DNA from: Streptosporangium album | GTDB taxonomy: Bacteria > Actinomycetota > Actinomycetes > Streptosporangiales > Streptosporangiaceae | Direction of reading: 5' to 3' | Assembly: GCF_014203795.1 (NCBI RefSeq) | Contig: NZ_JACHJU010000001.1 | Location: 3,658,001 to 3,722,000 of the forward strand | Length of the DNA: 64,000 nucleotides | Shown: in pieces, positions 35,764-39,958 of the stretch | How the letters are laid out: every line of letters begins with the position of its first letter | Position numbering within the stretch: the first letter of the stretch is position 1 | Notes under the pieces: generated by a model | Seen by the model: only the letters and a program-made list of their open reading frames with translations | Told to the model about the DNA's origin: nothing | The model's database searches: none | Position numbers and translations under genes: made by a program

Positions 35764-36557
35764 TGATGACGACATGTGATGAAGTACGGATATCGCTGGG
35801 GGCGTACGTGCTCGGGGCCCTGGAGCCCGAGGAGTGCGTGCTCGTCGAGGCGCATCTCGCCGAGTGCGCCGGCTGCCAGGCGGAGTTCGACGAGCTGACC
35901 GGAGTGGCCGCGTTCCTCGGACGGGTGTCCGAGGCGGACGTGGCGCAGGTGGCCAGCCCGCCCCAGGCGGTGCTGGACCGGCTGCTCAGCGCCAAGGTCA
36001 AGCGGCGCCGGATGACGCGGGCGCTGCTCTCGCTGGCCGCGTCCGTCCTCCTGGTCGGGCTCGGCGGCACGTGGTGGGTCACCCAGTCCGCCCCGCCCGC
36101 GCGGGACGCCGCGGTGTCCGCGCCCCGGTCGGCCGCCACCGGGAGTGACGAGCCACTTCTGACGAAGGAGAGGGCCGCCCCCACACCGGCTCCCAGGTCT
36201 TCCCGTTCGCCGGCGCAGGACGCCAACCCGCAGCTCATGCTGGAGCAGGGCGACGGCGAGCGGACGGTCCAGGGCGGCAACGACGGGGTCCACGCCACGG
36301 TGACCGTGGCGCCGGGCGCGGAGGCGACCAAGATCAAGGTCATGCTCTCCGGGGTCGCCCAGGGCACCCGCTGCCGGCTGGACGTGGTCGCGGTCGGCGG
36401 GGGCCGGGAGACGGCCGGGAACTGGATCGTGGACAGGGCCGCCTACGTCAGCTCGGGCGCCTTCGCGGGCACCACCACGATCCCTCCGGCGAGCATCTCC
36501 AGGTTCGAGATCGTCACCTCCGGAGGCCGGCTGCTGGTCAGCGTCCGCTTCCCCTGA
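35760..36557 (+). CDS. Membrane-anchored zinc-finger anti-sigma factor
   Basis: A 265-residue protein. The N-terminal zf-HC2 motif is CDEVRISLGAYVLG ... HLAECAGC, giving His-x3-Cys-x2-Cys. One transmembrane helix follows (ALLSLAASVLLVGLGGTWWV, about residues 85-105), then a Ser/Pro/Ala-rich linker and an exported beta-rich domain (GTRCRLDVVAVGGGRETAGN). Typical of ECF anti-sigma factors that bind sigma through the zinc finger inside and sense outside. Translationally coupled to the sigma gene. Confidence 0.88.
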   Translation: MMMTTCDEVRISLGAYVLGALEPEECVLVEAHLAECAGCQAEFDELTGVAAFLGRVSEADVAQVASPPQAVLDRLLSAKVKRRRMTRALLSLAASVLLVGLGGTWWVTQSAPPARDAAVSAPRSAATGSDEPLLTKERAAPTPAPRSSRSPAQDANPQLMLEQGDGERTVQGGNDGVHATVTVAPGAEATKIKVMLSGVAQGTRCRLDVVAVGGGRETAGNWIVDRAAYVSSGAFAGTTTIPPASISRFEIVTSGGRLLVSVRFP

Positions 36558-36602
36558 GCGGGGACCGCTCGGAGGAGGCTCCCGCTTTGAGCGGTGACCC
36601 GC
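36558..36602. terminator. Hairpin after the anti-sigma gene
   Basis: GCGGGGACCGCTC (36558-36570) can pair with GAGCGGTGACCCGC (36589-36602) with a small bulge. Confidence 0.5.
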
Positions 36603-36627
36603 CGGGAGAGAGCCCTCTTCCCGCAGG

Positions 36628-37095
36628 ATGGGGGTTCCCGGGGGAATGGCGTGGTGTGACCGGGTGTTGTCGTGCTCTGTGACCGGATTGGCAGTGGTGC
36701 TCGTCACGCTCGGCGTGGCCACGCTGGTGGGTGTGGTGATGCGCCGGCGCAGCGGCGTGCCGCGTGAGGTTGGGGGAGACGTGGAGCGGCTGACATCCGG
36801 TGACCTGGAGGCCGAGCTGGGACGGCGGGCCACGCTCGTCCAGTTCTCCAGCGCCTTCTGCCAGCCGTGCCGGGCGACCCGCCGGGTCCTCGCCGAGGTG
36901 ACGGAGATGGTGCCGGGGGTGGCACACGTGGAGATCGACGCGGAGTCCCGCCTCGATCTGGTCCGCTCGCTGAACATCCTGCGCACCCCGACCGTGCTGA
37001 TCCTCGACGCGTCGGGGCAGGTGGTGAAACGCGCCTCCGGCCAGCCGCGGAAGGCCGACGTGATCGGGGCCCTGGGCCTCGCGGTCGGCGAGTGA
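36628..37095 (+). CDS. Membrane-anchored thioredoxin-like protein (ThiX-like)
   Basis: A protein of up to 155 residues. An N-terminal hydrophobic helix (LAVVLVTLGVATLVGVVM) anchors a thioredoxin fold with redox motif CQPC in QFSSAFCQPCRATRRVLAEV and the cis-Pro segment LRTPTVLILD. In Mycobacterium tuberculosis a thioredoxin-like gene (thiX, Rv0816c) also stands beside cysA2-sseC, so this is probably the same gene in the same neighbourhood. The start is uncertain (ATG 36628, ATG 36646 or GTG further on). Transcribed toward the Cys leader and sulfurtransferase operon. Confidence 0.8.
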   Translation: MGVPGGMAWCDRVLSCSVTGLAVVLVTLGVATLVGVVMRRRSGVPREVGGDVERLTSGDLEAELGRRATLVQFSSAFCQPCRATRRVLAEVTEMVPGVAHVEIDAESRLDLVRSLNILRTPTVLILDASGQVVKRASGQPRKADVIGALGLAVGE

Positions 37096-37149
37096 GCCGC
37101 GAACCCTATCGCCCGTAAAACAACCTTGTCTCAGGAACTGGACGAGGAT

Positions 37150-37179
37150 GTGACAGATCCCGGAACGTCGGGGTAATGT
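37150..37179 (+). promoter_or_regulatory. Promoter of the cysteine-leader / sulfurtransferase operon
   Basis: GTGACA (37150-37155), 18 bases, TAATGT (37174-37179), then seven bases to the ATG of the leader ORF. Transcription should start at or next to that ATG, so the leader would be translated without a ribosome site. Confidence 0.6.
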
Positions 37180-37186
37180 CATCGAC

Positions 37187-37270
37187 ATGATGCCTACGAC
37201 AGAGCTGCTGACGAAGCGGCGCGCGGTGGATTTCTGCCGTGTGACCACCGCGCTCTGTCGCGTTTCCTAA
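37187..37270 (+). CDS. Cysteine-containing leader peptide (putative attenuator)
   Basis: A 27-residue ORF (MMPTTELLTKRRAVDFCRV then TTALCRVS, stop TAA 37268-37270). It fits the actinobacterial leader-peptide pattern Arg/Lys-rich, VD-x-CRV-x2-AxCR, found ahead of sulfur genes. Its two Cys codons sit in the last third. In mycobacteria, leaderless Cys-coding small ORFs upstream of cysA2-type operons act as cysteine-responsive attenuators: ribosomes stall at Cys codons when charged Cys-tRNA is scarce and this lets transcription continue. The same role is inferred here. A short hairpin (37284-37299) lies downstream, about 35 bases before the next gene. Confidence 0.75.
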   Translation: MMPTTELLTKRRAVDFCRVTTALCRVS

Positions 37271-37283
37271 AGGGCGATCTCAA

Positions 37284-37299
37284 GCGGCCTCTGAGCCGC
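37284..37299 (+). promoter_or_regulatory. Small hairpin downstream of the Cys leader
   Basis: GCGGC (37284-37288) pairs with GCCGC (37295-37299), loop CTCTGA. Too weak alone as a terminator. It could be part of an attenuation structure, or control could be Rho-dependent. Confidence 0.35.
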
Positions 37300-37330
37300 A
37301 CCGATCTGCACGACCCTTCAGGAGCATCGA

Positions 37331-37732
37331 GTGATGCAGGCTGATCCCAGGGCTCTCCGCTTCGCGGCAACGGTGACGACCATCGTCCTCGCGCTCGTCC
37401 TGGTCACAGGGAGCGCGTGGCTGCTGGCCGCGCAGGCGGCGGTGTTCGCACTGAGCGTCTTCGGCGCCTCGCCGTACGGGATGATTTTCAAAGGGATAGT
37501 GAAGAGCCCTCCCAAGGAGTTGGAGGACGCCGCCCCGCCGCGCTTCGCGCAGGGGGTCGGCCTCGCCTTCGCCCTGGTGGGCTTGGTCGGGTACGTCACG
37601 CAGATCACGCCGCTGGCCCTCGGCGCCACCGCCGCGGCTCTCTTCGCCGCCTTCCTCAACGCAGCTTTCGGCTTCTGTCTGGGCTGCGAGATGTTCCTTG
37701 TCATTCGCCGTTTACTGCCCGCCGCAAGATAA
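37331..37732 (+). CDS. DUF4395 membrane protein
   Basis: A 133-residue protein with about four hydrophobic helices (VTTIVLALVLVTGSAWLLAA; GLAFALVGLVGYV; LNAAFGFCLGCEMFLVIRRL). The C-terminal CLGCEM pair of cysteines is characteristic of DUF4395. These genes accompany sulfurtransferases and thioredoxin-like genes, suggesting a membrane partner in sulfur transfer or thiosulfate handling, but the function is not proven. GTG 37331 or the next ATG, after CAGGAG. Confidence 0.85.
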   Translation: MMQADPRALRFAATVTTIVLALVLVTGSAWLLAAQAAVFALSVFGASPYGMIFKGIVKSPPKELEDAAPPRFAQGVGLAFALVGLVGYVTQITPLALGATAAALFAAFLNAAFGFCLGCEMFLVIRRLLPAAR

Positions 37733-37746
37733 TCCCGGAGGATTCC

Positions 37747-38586
37747 ATGAGCCGCTCCGCCGTCCTGGTGGACGCTGACTGGGTCGAGGCCAACCTCGAC
37801 ACCGATGGCATCGTCCTCGTCGAAGTCGACGAAGACGCCAGTGCCTTTGACAAGGGCCACATCCGTGGCGCCGTGAAGGTCGACTGGAGGCAGGACCTCC
37901 AGGACCCGGTCCGCCGTGACTTCGTGGACCGTGAGGGCTTCCAGGCGCTGCTCTCCTCCCGGGGCATCGCCAACGACGACACCGTGATCCTCTACGGCGG
38001 CAACAACAACTGGTTCGCCGCCTACGCCTACTGGTACTTCAAGCTCTACGGCCACGAGAACGTCAAGCTGCTCGACGGTGGCCGCAAGAAGTGGGAGCTC
38101 GACTCCCGCGAGCTGGTCAGGGACGTCCCCAACCGTCCCACCACCGCCTACCAGGCCAAGGACCAGGACCTGTCCATCCGCGCCTTCCGTGACGACATCG
38201 TCGCCGCGATCGGCAAGCTCAACCTGGTCGACGTGCGCTCGCCCGACGAGTTCACCGGCAAGCTGCTCGCTCCCGCGCACCTCCCGCAGGAGGCGGCGCA
38301 GCGCGGCGGTCACGTGCCGACCGCCCGCAACATCCCGTGGTCCAAGGCTGCCAACGACGACGGCACCTTCAAATCCGACGAGGACCTGAAGTCCCTCTAC
38401 GAGGGCGAGGGTGTCGACTTCGGCAAGGACACCATCGCCTACTGCCGAATCGGTGAGCGCTCGGCCCACTCCTGGTTCGTGCTGCACGAGCTTCTGGGCC
38501 AGGCCAGCGTCAAGAACTACGACGGTTCATGGACAGAGTACGGCTCGCTCGTGGGCGTGCCGATCGAACTGGGAGAGGCCCGATAA
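37747..38586 (+). CDS. cysA2: Thiosulfate sulfurtransferase (rhodanese, CysA2/SseA type)
   Basis: A 279-residue two-domain rhodanese from ATG 37747 (CCGGAGGA upstream). The N-terminal domain is the inactive scaffold (VLVEVDEDASAFDKGHIRGA). The C-terminal domain has the active loop YCRIGERSAHSWFVL with the catalytic Cys. It moves sulfane sulfur from thiosulfate to thiol acceptors or cyanide. Second gene of the operon behind the Cys leader. Its stop overlaps the next start (TAATG). Confidence 0.93.
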   Translation: MSRSAVLVDADWVEANLDTDGIVLVEVDEDASAFDKGHIRGAVKVDWRQDLQDPVRRDFVDREGFQALLSSRGIANDDTVILYGGNNNWFAAYAYWYFKLYGHENVKLLDGGRKKWELDSRELVRDVPNRPTTAYQAKDQDLSIRAFRDDIVAAIGKLNLVDVRSPDEFTGKLLAPAHLPQEAAQRGGHVPTARNIPWSKAANDDGTFKSDEDLKSLYEGEGVDFGKDTIAYCRIGERSAHSWFVLHELLGQASVKNYDGSWTEYGSLVGVPIELGEAR

Positions 38587-38882
38587 TGACCGACGGTTGC
38601 GCAGCTCCGGAACAGACGATCGCCCTCCCGGCCGGGGTCGACCTTTCGACCCAGGCCGTCATCCAGGGAGTGGTGTCCGGCGCGGGTACGGCATACGCCC
38701 GCCTGCTGGACCACTCCGGCGAGTTCACCGGCGAGGTCGTGGTGTCCGACGAGGGCATCTTCCGCTTCTTCGCCGCCCCCGGTGACTGGACCGTCCGCAT
38801 CATCGCGGGCGGCGGCGTCACCAAGGACATCAAGGCCCAGGCCCGCCTGGGTGAGGTCACCCAGCTCGCCGTGGCTGTCTGA
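38586..38882 (+). CDS. sseC: DUF1416 protein (SseC-like)
   Basis: A 98-residue protein from ATG 38586, overlapping the sulfurtransferase stop by one base. Beta-sandwich-like sequence (VIQGVVSGAGTAYARLLDHS; GDWTVRIIAGGGVTKDI). DUF1416 members, including mycobacterial SseC, always sit with CysA2-type sulfurtransferases. The role is inferred to be an accessory in sulfur transfer. A hairpin terminator follows, so the operon is leader-DUF4395-cysA2-sseC. Confidence 0.9.
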   Translation: MTDGCAAPEQTIALPAGVDLSTQAVIQGVVSGAGTAYARLLDHSGEFTGEVVVSDEGIFRFFAAPGDWTVRIIAGGGVTKDIKAQARLGEVTQLAVAV

Positions 38883-38898
38883 TCCGAAAGTAACGGCC

Positions 38899-38934
38899 GA
38901 GGGCCGGCATCCCGTTTCGCGGGTGCCGGCCCTC
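38899..38934. terminator. Hairpin terminator after the sulfurtransferase operon
   Basis: GAGGGCCGGCA(T)CCCG (38899-38914) pairs with 38919-38934, one bulged T, loop TTTC. It lies between convergent genes. Confidence 0.75.
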
Positions 38935-38953
38935 AGTCGTCTCCGAGAGGTTC

Positions 38954-39958
38954 CTACGGGACCCGGCTCTCGACGCGGCGGAGCGCGTCGGCGTAGCCGG
39001 GGTCGGCGGACATGGCCGCCGCCAGCCGGAGGTGCGGCAATGCCTCGGCGTGACGGTTGGCCCGCTCCAGGGTCCTGCCGAGCAGGAACCTGACGTAGTG
39101 GTCGCCGGGCGCCCGGTCGAGCAGTGACTCCAGGGTCTCCCGCGCCCGGCCGAGCTGGGCCGAGCCGAAGTAGGCGCGGGCGGCCAGCAGCCGGACGGCG
39201 GGGTCGTCGCCGTGGTCGGCCAGCAGCGGCTCCAGCGTCCGCAGCGCGCCGAGGGGGTCCCGGACGTCCAGCAGAGACTCGGCCTGACGCAGCAGTCTGA
39301 CCTCGTCGGGGAGCTCGCGCTCGGGCGCGGCCTGCCGCAGGAGGTCCGCCAGGACCTCCGGCGACTGCGCGCCCGCGACCGCCGTGCCGCCTGCGACATA
39401 GGTCGGCGAGGTGGCCACGCCGATGGCCTTGCCGCGCAGGAGCTGGGAACGGACCTCGCCCACTCCCTCCCCGGCGTCGAGCGCCTCGGCCATGCCGTCC
39501 AGCCCCGCCTCGGCGGCGAGCGCCACCAGGGTGGCCCGGTCGCCGATGTCGGAGGCCTCGACGAAGTGGGCGCGCAGGATCCGCTCCACGACGGCGTCCT
39601 GCAGGGCAGAACCGCCCCGCTGGTGGGCGAGGGCGATCACCCGATGGGCGTCGAACGTGTTGGGACGCCAGACGGCGCCCCAGGGCGGGCCGAGTCCCTC
39701 CTCGGCCGCGATGGCGGAGACGCGGACCCGGTTCTCCGCCGGGGTCAGGTCGGGGTGGCAGGCCTGCAGGGCTCCGTCGGCGATCGGGCCGCGCAGCGCC
39801 TCGTACAGCGGCTCGGCCGGGGCCGGAGCCATCGGGTCGATCTGGAAGGGGCGCCAGACGATCTCCACGTCCTCGCCGAACCCGGCCTTCTCCAGGCGTC
39901 GCTTGCCGATGTAGGCCCAGGCGCAGACCATGTCGGCCCAGACTTCGATGCGCTTCAT
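38954..39958 (-). CDS. DsbA/FrnE-family thioredoxin-fold protein fused to TPR repeats
   Basis: A 334-residue protein from ATG 39958. The first 210 residues are a FrnE-type DsbA fold: MKRIEVWADMVCAWAYIGKR at the N-terminus, VWRPFQIDP, the helical insert, and a cis-Pro segment GVATSPTYVAGG. FrnE proteins normally have CPWC here. This one reads CAWA, so the second cysteine is lost and normal disulfide exchange is not possible. The last 110 residues are TPR-like helices (LRTLEPLLADHGDDPAVRLL; HYVRFLLGRTLERANRHAEA). Divergent from the TetR gene 60 bases away and probably controlled by it. Confidence 0.85.
   Translation of the reverse strand: MKRIEVWADMVCAWAYIGKRRLEKAGFGEDVEIVWRPFQIDPMAPAPAEPLYEALRGPIADGALQACHPDLTPAENRVRVSAIAAEEGLGPPWGAVWRPNTFDAHRVIALAHQRGGSALQDAVVERILRAHFVEASDIGDRATLVALAAEAGLDGMAEALDAGEGVGEVRSQLLRGKAIGVATSPTYVAGGTAVAGAQSPEVLADLLRQAAPERELPDEVRLLRQAESLLDVRDPLGALRTLEPLLADHGDDPAVRLLAARAYFGSAQLGRARETLESLLDRAPGDHYVRFLLGRTLERANRHAEALPHLRLAAAMSADPGYADALRRVESRVP

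Follow-up and report, generated by a model that had tools for sequence, protein, structure and literature searches.

What is the role of a short open reading frame carrying two cysteine codons that sits immediately in front of a sulfurtransferase operon in Streptosporangium album? The operon lies within a window of 64,000 nt (the whole stretch of DNA that was analysed) of the 9.02 Mb genome. It encodes a DUF4395 membrane protein, a rhodanese-domain sulfurtransferase, which is SseA/CysA2-like, and a DUF1416 protein, with the stop of the rhodanese gene overlapping the start of the DUF1416 gene (Table 1). The nearest DUF4395 proteins among named matches come from Streptosporangium, Planobispora and Planomonospora, at 83-88% identity. 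A preliminary description of the locus had placed a -35/-10 pair next to a 27-codon ORF with two Cys codons instead of a poly-Cys tract, followed by 60 bases and a DUF4395-rhodanese-DUF1416 operon, with no strong intrinsic terminator in sight. All of these elements were recovered: the ORF at 37187-37270, both promoter boxes with a 7-nt spacing to the ATG, the three Pfam domains, and a spacer of 60 nt between the leader stop and the GTG of DUF4395, while no intrinsic-terminator-like site (hairpin and U-run) was found in 36800-38500. Searching 36000-39500 against Rfam for a known riboswitch or T-box gave no match up to an E value of 1. A thioredoxin-like gene (36628-37095) ends 91 nt upstream of the leader, and thioredoxin-like ORFs of a similar kind lie upstream of DUF4395 in several other genomes.

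Table 1. Features of the leader and operon in the S. album window
Feature	Position	Strand	Remarks
-35-like hexamer GTGACA	37150..37155	+	18 nt upstream of -10 box; sequence
-10 box TAATGT	37174..37179	+	7 nt upstream of leader ATG
Leader ORF, 27 codons, MMPTTELLTKRRAVDFCRVTTALCRVS then stop	37187..37270	+	Putatively leaderless; ORF list
Leader hairpin, 5' arm CGACAGAGC	37197..37205	+	Fold
First Cys codon TGC	37235..37237	+	Optional in family; column 5
Leader hairpin, 3' arm GCTCTGTCG	37252..37260	+	Contains second Cys codon; fold
Second Cys codon TGT	37256..37258	+	Proposed sensing codon; column 12
Anti-SD TTTCCTAAAGGG	37263..37274	+	Last Ser codon, stop and next bases; fold, permutations
DUF4395 SD and flank CCCTTCAGGAG	37314..37324	+	Anti-SD partner, one A-C mismatch; sequence, fold
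DUF4395 membrane protein gene	37331..37732	+	Pfam PF14340, E 2.5e-40; GTG start
Rhodanese-domain sulfurtransferase gene	37747..38586	+	Pfam PF00581
DUF1416 gene	38586..38882	+	Pfam PF07210, E 1.3e-33

Judging from the spacing of the -10 box, transcription probably starts at the ATG of the ORF, which would make the leader leaderless. A TANNNT motif occurs 5-9 nt upstream of the in-frame start in 141/153 orthologous leaders, at exactly 7 nt in 108 of these, compared with 3/160 for out-of-frame starts (both alternative frames). The sequence gtgaca is seen at the same place in the relatives compared. A generic sigma-70 scan of 36800-38500 found no promoter. A second ATG, at 37190, follows the first. 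The hexamer GACAGA is common to the -35 region (37152-37157) and the 5' hairpin arm (37198-37203), which may be chance.

The leader peptide, ending in ...CRVTTALCRVS, passes the NCBIfam model NF042934 (cis_reg_atten, putative leader peptide) with 30.8 bits for a cut-off of 27, and scores 29.5 bits in the genome search. With NF042933 (leader_Ms5788A, Cys-rich) it reaches 40.5 bits (E 1.6e-10), below the 45-bit cut-off: it is a near relative of NF042933 that is not filed as a member. It has the place expected of NF042933, upstream of a cysA2-type operon (DUF4395, rhodanese, DUF1416), and lacks the run of consecutive Cys codons of mycobacterial poly-Cys leaders, six codons separating its two Cys. 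The operon is matched to the mycobacterial one on the basis of mycobacteria-like (f4) leaders upstream of DUF4395 and of the available part of PMC4633059. NF042934 has five matches in the S. album genome, of which four, including a degenerate one, exceed the cut-off and the last scores 23.3 bits. With a threshold of E 5e-4, 45/59 class genomes have matches, as many as 10 in a single genome, compared with 0/14 control genomes; at E 10 control genomes also match, none above the cut-off.

We then considered orthologous operons across the class, where DUF4395 is present in 170/246 genomes. The 190 upstream regions comprise 110 from DUF4395 genomes of the class set (110 of the 170 were sampled, and later 14 more of family f25) and 80 from species-named genomes. 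A leader was recognised, at a score of 25 or more, in 165/190 regions, and this score was reached by 2/704 shuffled or reverse-complement controls. Among the 165, G025 looks spurious and G020 is without the second Cys. The 25 regions scoring below 25 were left out of the leader counts: nine are Streptomyces-like (f18), seven belong to Streptomyces, Actinacidiphila or Streptantibioticus, two to f4, and seven are others; in one region counted as a miss (L164) a leader-like ORF is visible that the length rule missed. The counts cover related rows and are not independent events; some organisms occur twice (e.g., G233 and L185), the row totals (145, 146, 153, 157, 147 and 136) differ because duplicates and unclear SDs or starts were filtered differently, and labels such as Streptomyces-like or mycobacteria-like denote an inferred family or genus. 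Together, the profiles, the 165/190 operons and the -10 spacing lend good support to the proposal of the preliminary description that this putatively leaderless Cys leader is orthologous to those of mycobacterial cysA2.

The leader's Cys codons are not equivalent, a point absent from that description. The first is present in 112/146 distinct leaders (TGC 109, TGT 3), and the second position is Cys in 144/146 (TGT 143, TGC 1). Among 88 family members upstream of mixed genes, column 12 reads TGT in 85 and TGC, TGA and CGT in one each; these are 83 listed NF042934 matches, a set that omits below-cut-off matches and most of those already in the DUF4395 set, and five own-genome matches. The DUF4395 type accounts for at least 11 of the 88. 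As a background, Cys codons number TGC 161 and TGT 8 in the DUF4395 genes of 80 loci (8/169, 5%), TGC 82 and TGT 5 in the next ORFs of these loci (5/87), and TGC 50 and TGT 11 in 26 ORFs of the window (11/61, 18%). Column 12 is TGT wherever it is Cys in the 24 genome families tallied, except in f25 (TGT 1, TGC 2). The TGC exceptions are found in G103 and G193 (leaders L104 and L105), whose regions of 40 kb each have 46% and 44% GC and UGU:UGC counts of 47:48 and 66:62. Of 14 further f25 regions, eight have recognised leaders, all with TGT, and six are without a leader. Rarity alone is thus a poor fit for UGU, which is about as frequent as UGC in G103 and G193 and is kept by their f25 relatives. 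In the five f4 leaders the Cys runs are rich in TGT, which also occupies column 12. Three tRNA-Cys genes with anticodon GCA were found in S. album by a search pattern that itself fixes GCA and covers no other Cys anticodon.

Paralogous leaders of the S. album genome lie upstream of genes for a nitrite/sulfite reductase-domain protein (L004), a KorA-like pyruvate:ferredoxin-oxidoreductase-domain (2-oxoacid:ferredoxin oxidoreductase) protein (L005) and an SDF-family symporter (L006), and all three carry TGT at the second Cys position. In L002, on the minus strand of the same genome, CGT (Arg) replaces the second Cys codon and there is no clear gene downstream; this leader-like ORF is perhaps a decayed copy. 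L267 has TGA at the aligned second Cys position, and its ORF ends exactly at the place of UGU. The Streptomyces-like G057 has five leader matches in ~21 kb (G057:C1:1354546-1375350) and is without a recognised leader upstream of DUF4395, despite ten matches in the genome.

What lies downstream of UGU is fitted to the first gene of the operon. Of all 14-nt leader windows, the one whose centre lies 12 nt past the first base of UGU pairs most strongly with its own SD, at -10.80 kcal/mol versus -9.34 (sd 0.18) on permutation, a fit reached by 0/2000 permutations (n=147), while windows not overlapping it give -4.9 to -7.5. With 27 lineage representatives the values are -9.73 versus -8.39 (P=0.001; 25 windows scanned), and the duplex is weak in several of these (f24 -5.7, f41 -5.4, f32 -4.1, f5 -6.6, f25 -2.9 and mycobacteria-like f4 -7.2 kcal/mol). 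The distance from UGU to the end of the stop is 15 nt in 111/157 leaders. In three Acrocarpospora leaders (L135, L139, L142) the reading frame closes sooner, at a TAG, and GCCTGA remains at UGU+9 to +14, which suggests that the distance from UGU to the anti-SD is kept, and not that from UGU to the stop. A second, weaker preference for the own SD is seen 9-18 nt before UGU (P 0.003-0.009; four windows, 27 representatives). Leaders upstream of other genes keep UGU and have a weak anti-SD near the stop (-8.0 vs -6.8 permuted) in a set of 54 leaders that includes some misclassified DUF4395 ones. With only this weak signal, an anti-SD at the stop common to the whole NF042934 family was rejected, and the whole family may therefore not work by SD masking.

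We modelled ribosome positions by masking the footprint codon by codon and calculating SD exposure from folding at 136 loci. Mean exposure was 0.189 for the free leader, 0.192 with the ribosome at the first Cys and 0.294 with UGU in the A site; the values for S. album were 0.026, 0.026 and 0.371, so that in silico the S. album SD is paired with a free leader and becomes accessible with a ribosome stalled at UGU. Placing the ribosome at UGU raised exposure by more than 0.05 at 65/136 loci and lowered it by as much at 18, with smaller changes at 53. Depending on the assumed footprint edge, the codon of highest exposure shifts between columns 11 and 13 (28 loci). This difference between the two Cys positions would account for a first Cys that is optional and a second that is not. 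Replacing UGU by UGC shifts modelled SD exposure by -0.017 (sd 0.056), at an average loss of 1.03 kcal/mol in folding energy (28 loci).

The leader is therefore likely to be a cysteine-responsive translational attenuator that acts by SD masking. When cysteine is ample, ribosomes would read the leader through its stop and then leave; in the vacated leader the last codons and the stop, as anti-SD, would occupy the DUF4395 SD by base pairing, so that it stays off. When Cys-tRNA is short, a ribosome would wait with the second Cys codon, UGU, in its A site, its leading edge would cover the anti-SD 9-14 nt downstream, and the freed SD would allow the operon to be translated. Several observations weigh against this reading: modelled exposure falls or hardly changes at many loci, the anti-SD duplex is weak in several representatives, 25 regions have no recognised leader, and the S. 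album fold itself is not unusually stable (z -1.29; spacer and start, z 0.36). The computations show the conserved leader and -10 spacing, the near-invariant UGU, the match of the anti-SD to its own SD and the modelled exposure at UGU; actual stalling, the response to cysteine and decoding as the reason for UGU are what we infer here.

Could UGU be kept only because the 5' hairpin arm offers a Thr codon, ACN, as its pairing partner? In the S. album fold, codons 4-7 and the codons around UGU form the two sides of a hairpin. Of 145 leaders, 106 have the codon motif setting this register, and in these 82.5% of the 7 pairs are standard versus 31-54% when shifted. Two-sided changes (G-C, C-G and U-G exchanges) occur beside the UGU codon in these leaders, and it is the flanking pairs that carry the evidence for the hairpin, because the two central pairs follow from the conserved Thr (ACN) and Cys (TGT). 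The unpaired probability of the wobble base averages 0.29 (28 loci), also in line with pairing. UGU pairing is 17.0 upstream versus 14.8 in the control and shows no enrichment downstream (12.7 vs 12.9). The five f4 leaders sampled are without the 5'-arm register. UGU is found in 36/37 Cys-bearing leaders lacking the register, on which ground the 5'-arm hairpin alone was rejected as its source, and it makes up 85/86 of the Cys in members upstream of mixed genes; together with the small effect of the UGC swap on modelled exposure, this renders a pure pairing role improbable. By the same token, since the swap leaves exposure in place and UGU is kept without the register, the SD-masking model does not explain the choice of UGU over UGC. 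What remains for UGU would be decoding, by a G-U wobble that slows when Cys-tRNA is scarce, or else an arrest peptide; that it is kept for a decoding reason is our favoured guess.

An arrest peptide is a possibility that we entertain tentatively: the conserved [KR]RRAVDxxR.....C motif would itself pause the ribosome at UGU, where one weakly supplied codon would be enough, and SD masking would follow, which makes this account compatible with the mechanism proposed above. At conserved non-Cys positions of the leader peptides the codon varies but the amino acid does not (R 145/146, with six codons; D 145/146; R 143/146). TKRRV[IL]D persists in eight leaders whose regions have 38-48% GC, the motif is partly common to leaders upstream of unrelated genes, and 32/153 DUF4395 leaders and 37/87 family members have just one Cys throughout. 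Some of this conservation, though, may be at the RNA level, in the hairpin arms. The preliminary description had instead suggested control by Rho or by translation coupling. In Rho attenuation, transcription would end on the untranslated C-rich spacer unless a stalled ribosome shields the RNA, an idea put forward for mycobacterial cys leaders in 2005 (PMC1262725). The absence of an intrinsic terminator and the C-rich spacer agree with this part of the suggestion (42% C vs 27% G at 136 loci, as raw composition), but Rho does not predict the fit of the anti-SD to its own SD; this fit and the modelled exposure at UGU make SD masking likelier than Rho or coupling, and we regard Rho attenuation as unlikely. 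A chance ORF, or a functional small protein without a cis role, is very improbable: conserved amino acids could serve a trans-acting peptide, but the fixed place upstream of the operon, the -10 spacing and a leader end that fits the SD speak against this reading.

How does SD masking in S. album compare with known systems? In ermC-type translational attenuators, a ribosome stalled on the leader ORF frees a masked SD; the S. album signal would be amino acid shortage and not an antibiotic, and its anti-SD is the leader's own end. On the M. smegmatis Cys leader, a stalled ribosome reportedly blocks SD masking, as Canestrari and co-workers are said to have found in 2020. The mycobacterial Ms5788A leader, a poly-Cys sORF before cysA2 (NF042933), shares with S. 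album the operon type, a promoter-adjacent start, the motif TKRRAVDLCRV and Cys codons near the end. Unlike the two separate Cys codons of S. album, mycobacteria have a run of five or six, and the f4 leaders lack the 5'-arm hairpin register that S. album has. The poly-Cys leaders of mycobacteria-like genomes, with this shared motif, appear to be a derived form. NF042934, whose cut-off the leader passes, is a protein-level model, and such a profile can capture neither the UGU constraint nor the anti-SD.

Earlier literature bears on the same type of element. Cys leaders without terminators were predicted in 2005 in mycobacteria, P. acnes and B. longum (PMC1262725), and ribosome profiling supports the mycobacterial Cys leader (PMC4633059), according to the available parts of both papers. 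For M. smegmatis, papers citing Canestrari 2020 (PMC9094748, PMC13236596 and PMC9031893) describe leaderless Cys ORFs that attenuate in a Cys-dependent manner, and a paper citing that work names the mechanism translation attenuation. The LEU element before leuA in Actinobacteria, in which pairing is predicted between leader codons and the first gene's SD, differs in having a Leu codon run and a pseudoknot, the S. album anti-SD following the sensing codon (PMC1262725, available part). Before cysS in Rhodobacterales, uORFC-8-2 is likewise a Cys-codon leader, with tandem Cys codons, mostly UGC, and an intrinsic terminator, whereas the Cys codons of S. album are separate and no intrinsic terminator follows (PMC8632094, available part). 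Among the Cys-leader matches listed, a scope outside which subscription papers mostly fall, we found no description of a UGU codon constraint; the available parts of PMC8632094, PMC13236596, PMC5972666, PMC1262725, PMC4633059, PMC9094748 and PMC9031893 contain none, and Canestrari 2020 may hold part of it.

The kind of element is already known, and it is the codon-level rule that is surprising. New are the near-invariant UGU, the fit of the anti-SD to its own SD, and a modelled SD exposure that rises with the ribosome at UGU but hardly changes with it at the first Cys. As a rule, amino-acid attenuators are taken to require several regulatory codons, while the comparative data point here to one codon, locked to one synonym, at a distance to the anti-SD that is mostly kept. 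We tentatively propose a wider reading, for which we hold limited confidence: a class-wide actinobacterial one-codon cysteine sensor, in which the conserved nascent peptide (RRAVDxxR-x5-C or RxHVDLxR-x5-C) would prime the ribosome and one UGU, decoded by tRNA-Cys(GCA) via a G34-U wobble, would set the threshold, the mycobacterial poly-Cys leaders arising later. If this is true, the synonymous codon itself would be tuned, beyond the amino acid. The choice between two codons of the same tRNA offers a clean test case for how codon choice sets the sensitivity of a ribosome sensor. An origin is thereby suggested for the mycobacterial poly-Cys switches, and the up to ten leaders per genome in Streptomyces-like organisms hint at a wider cysteine regulon.
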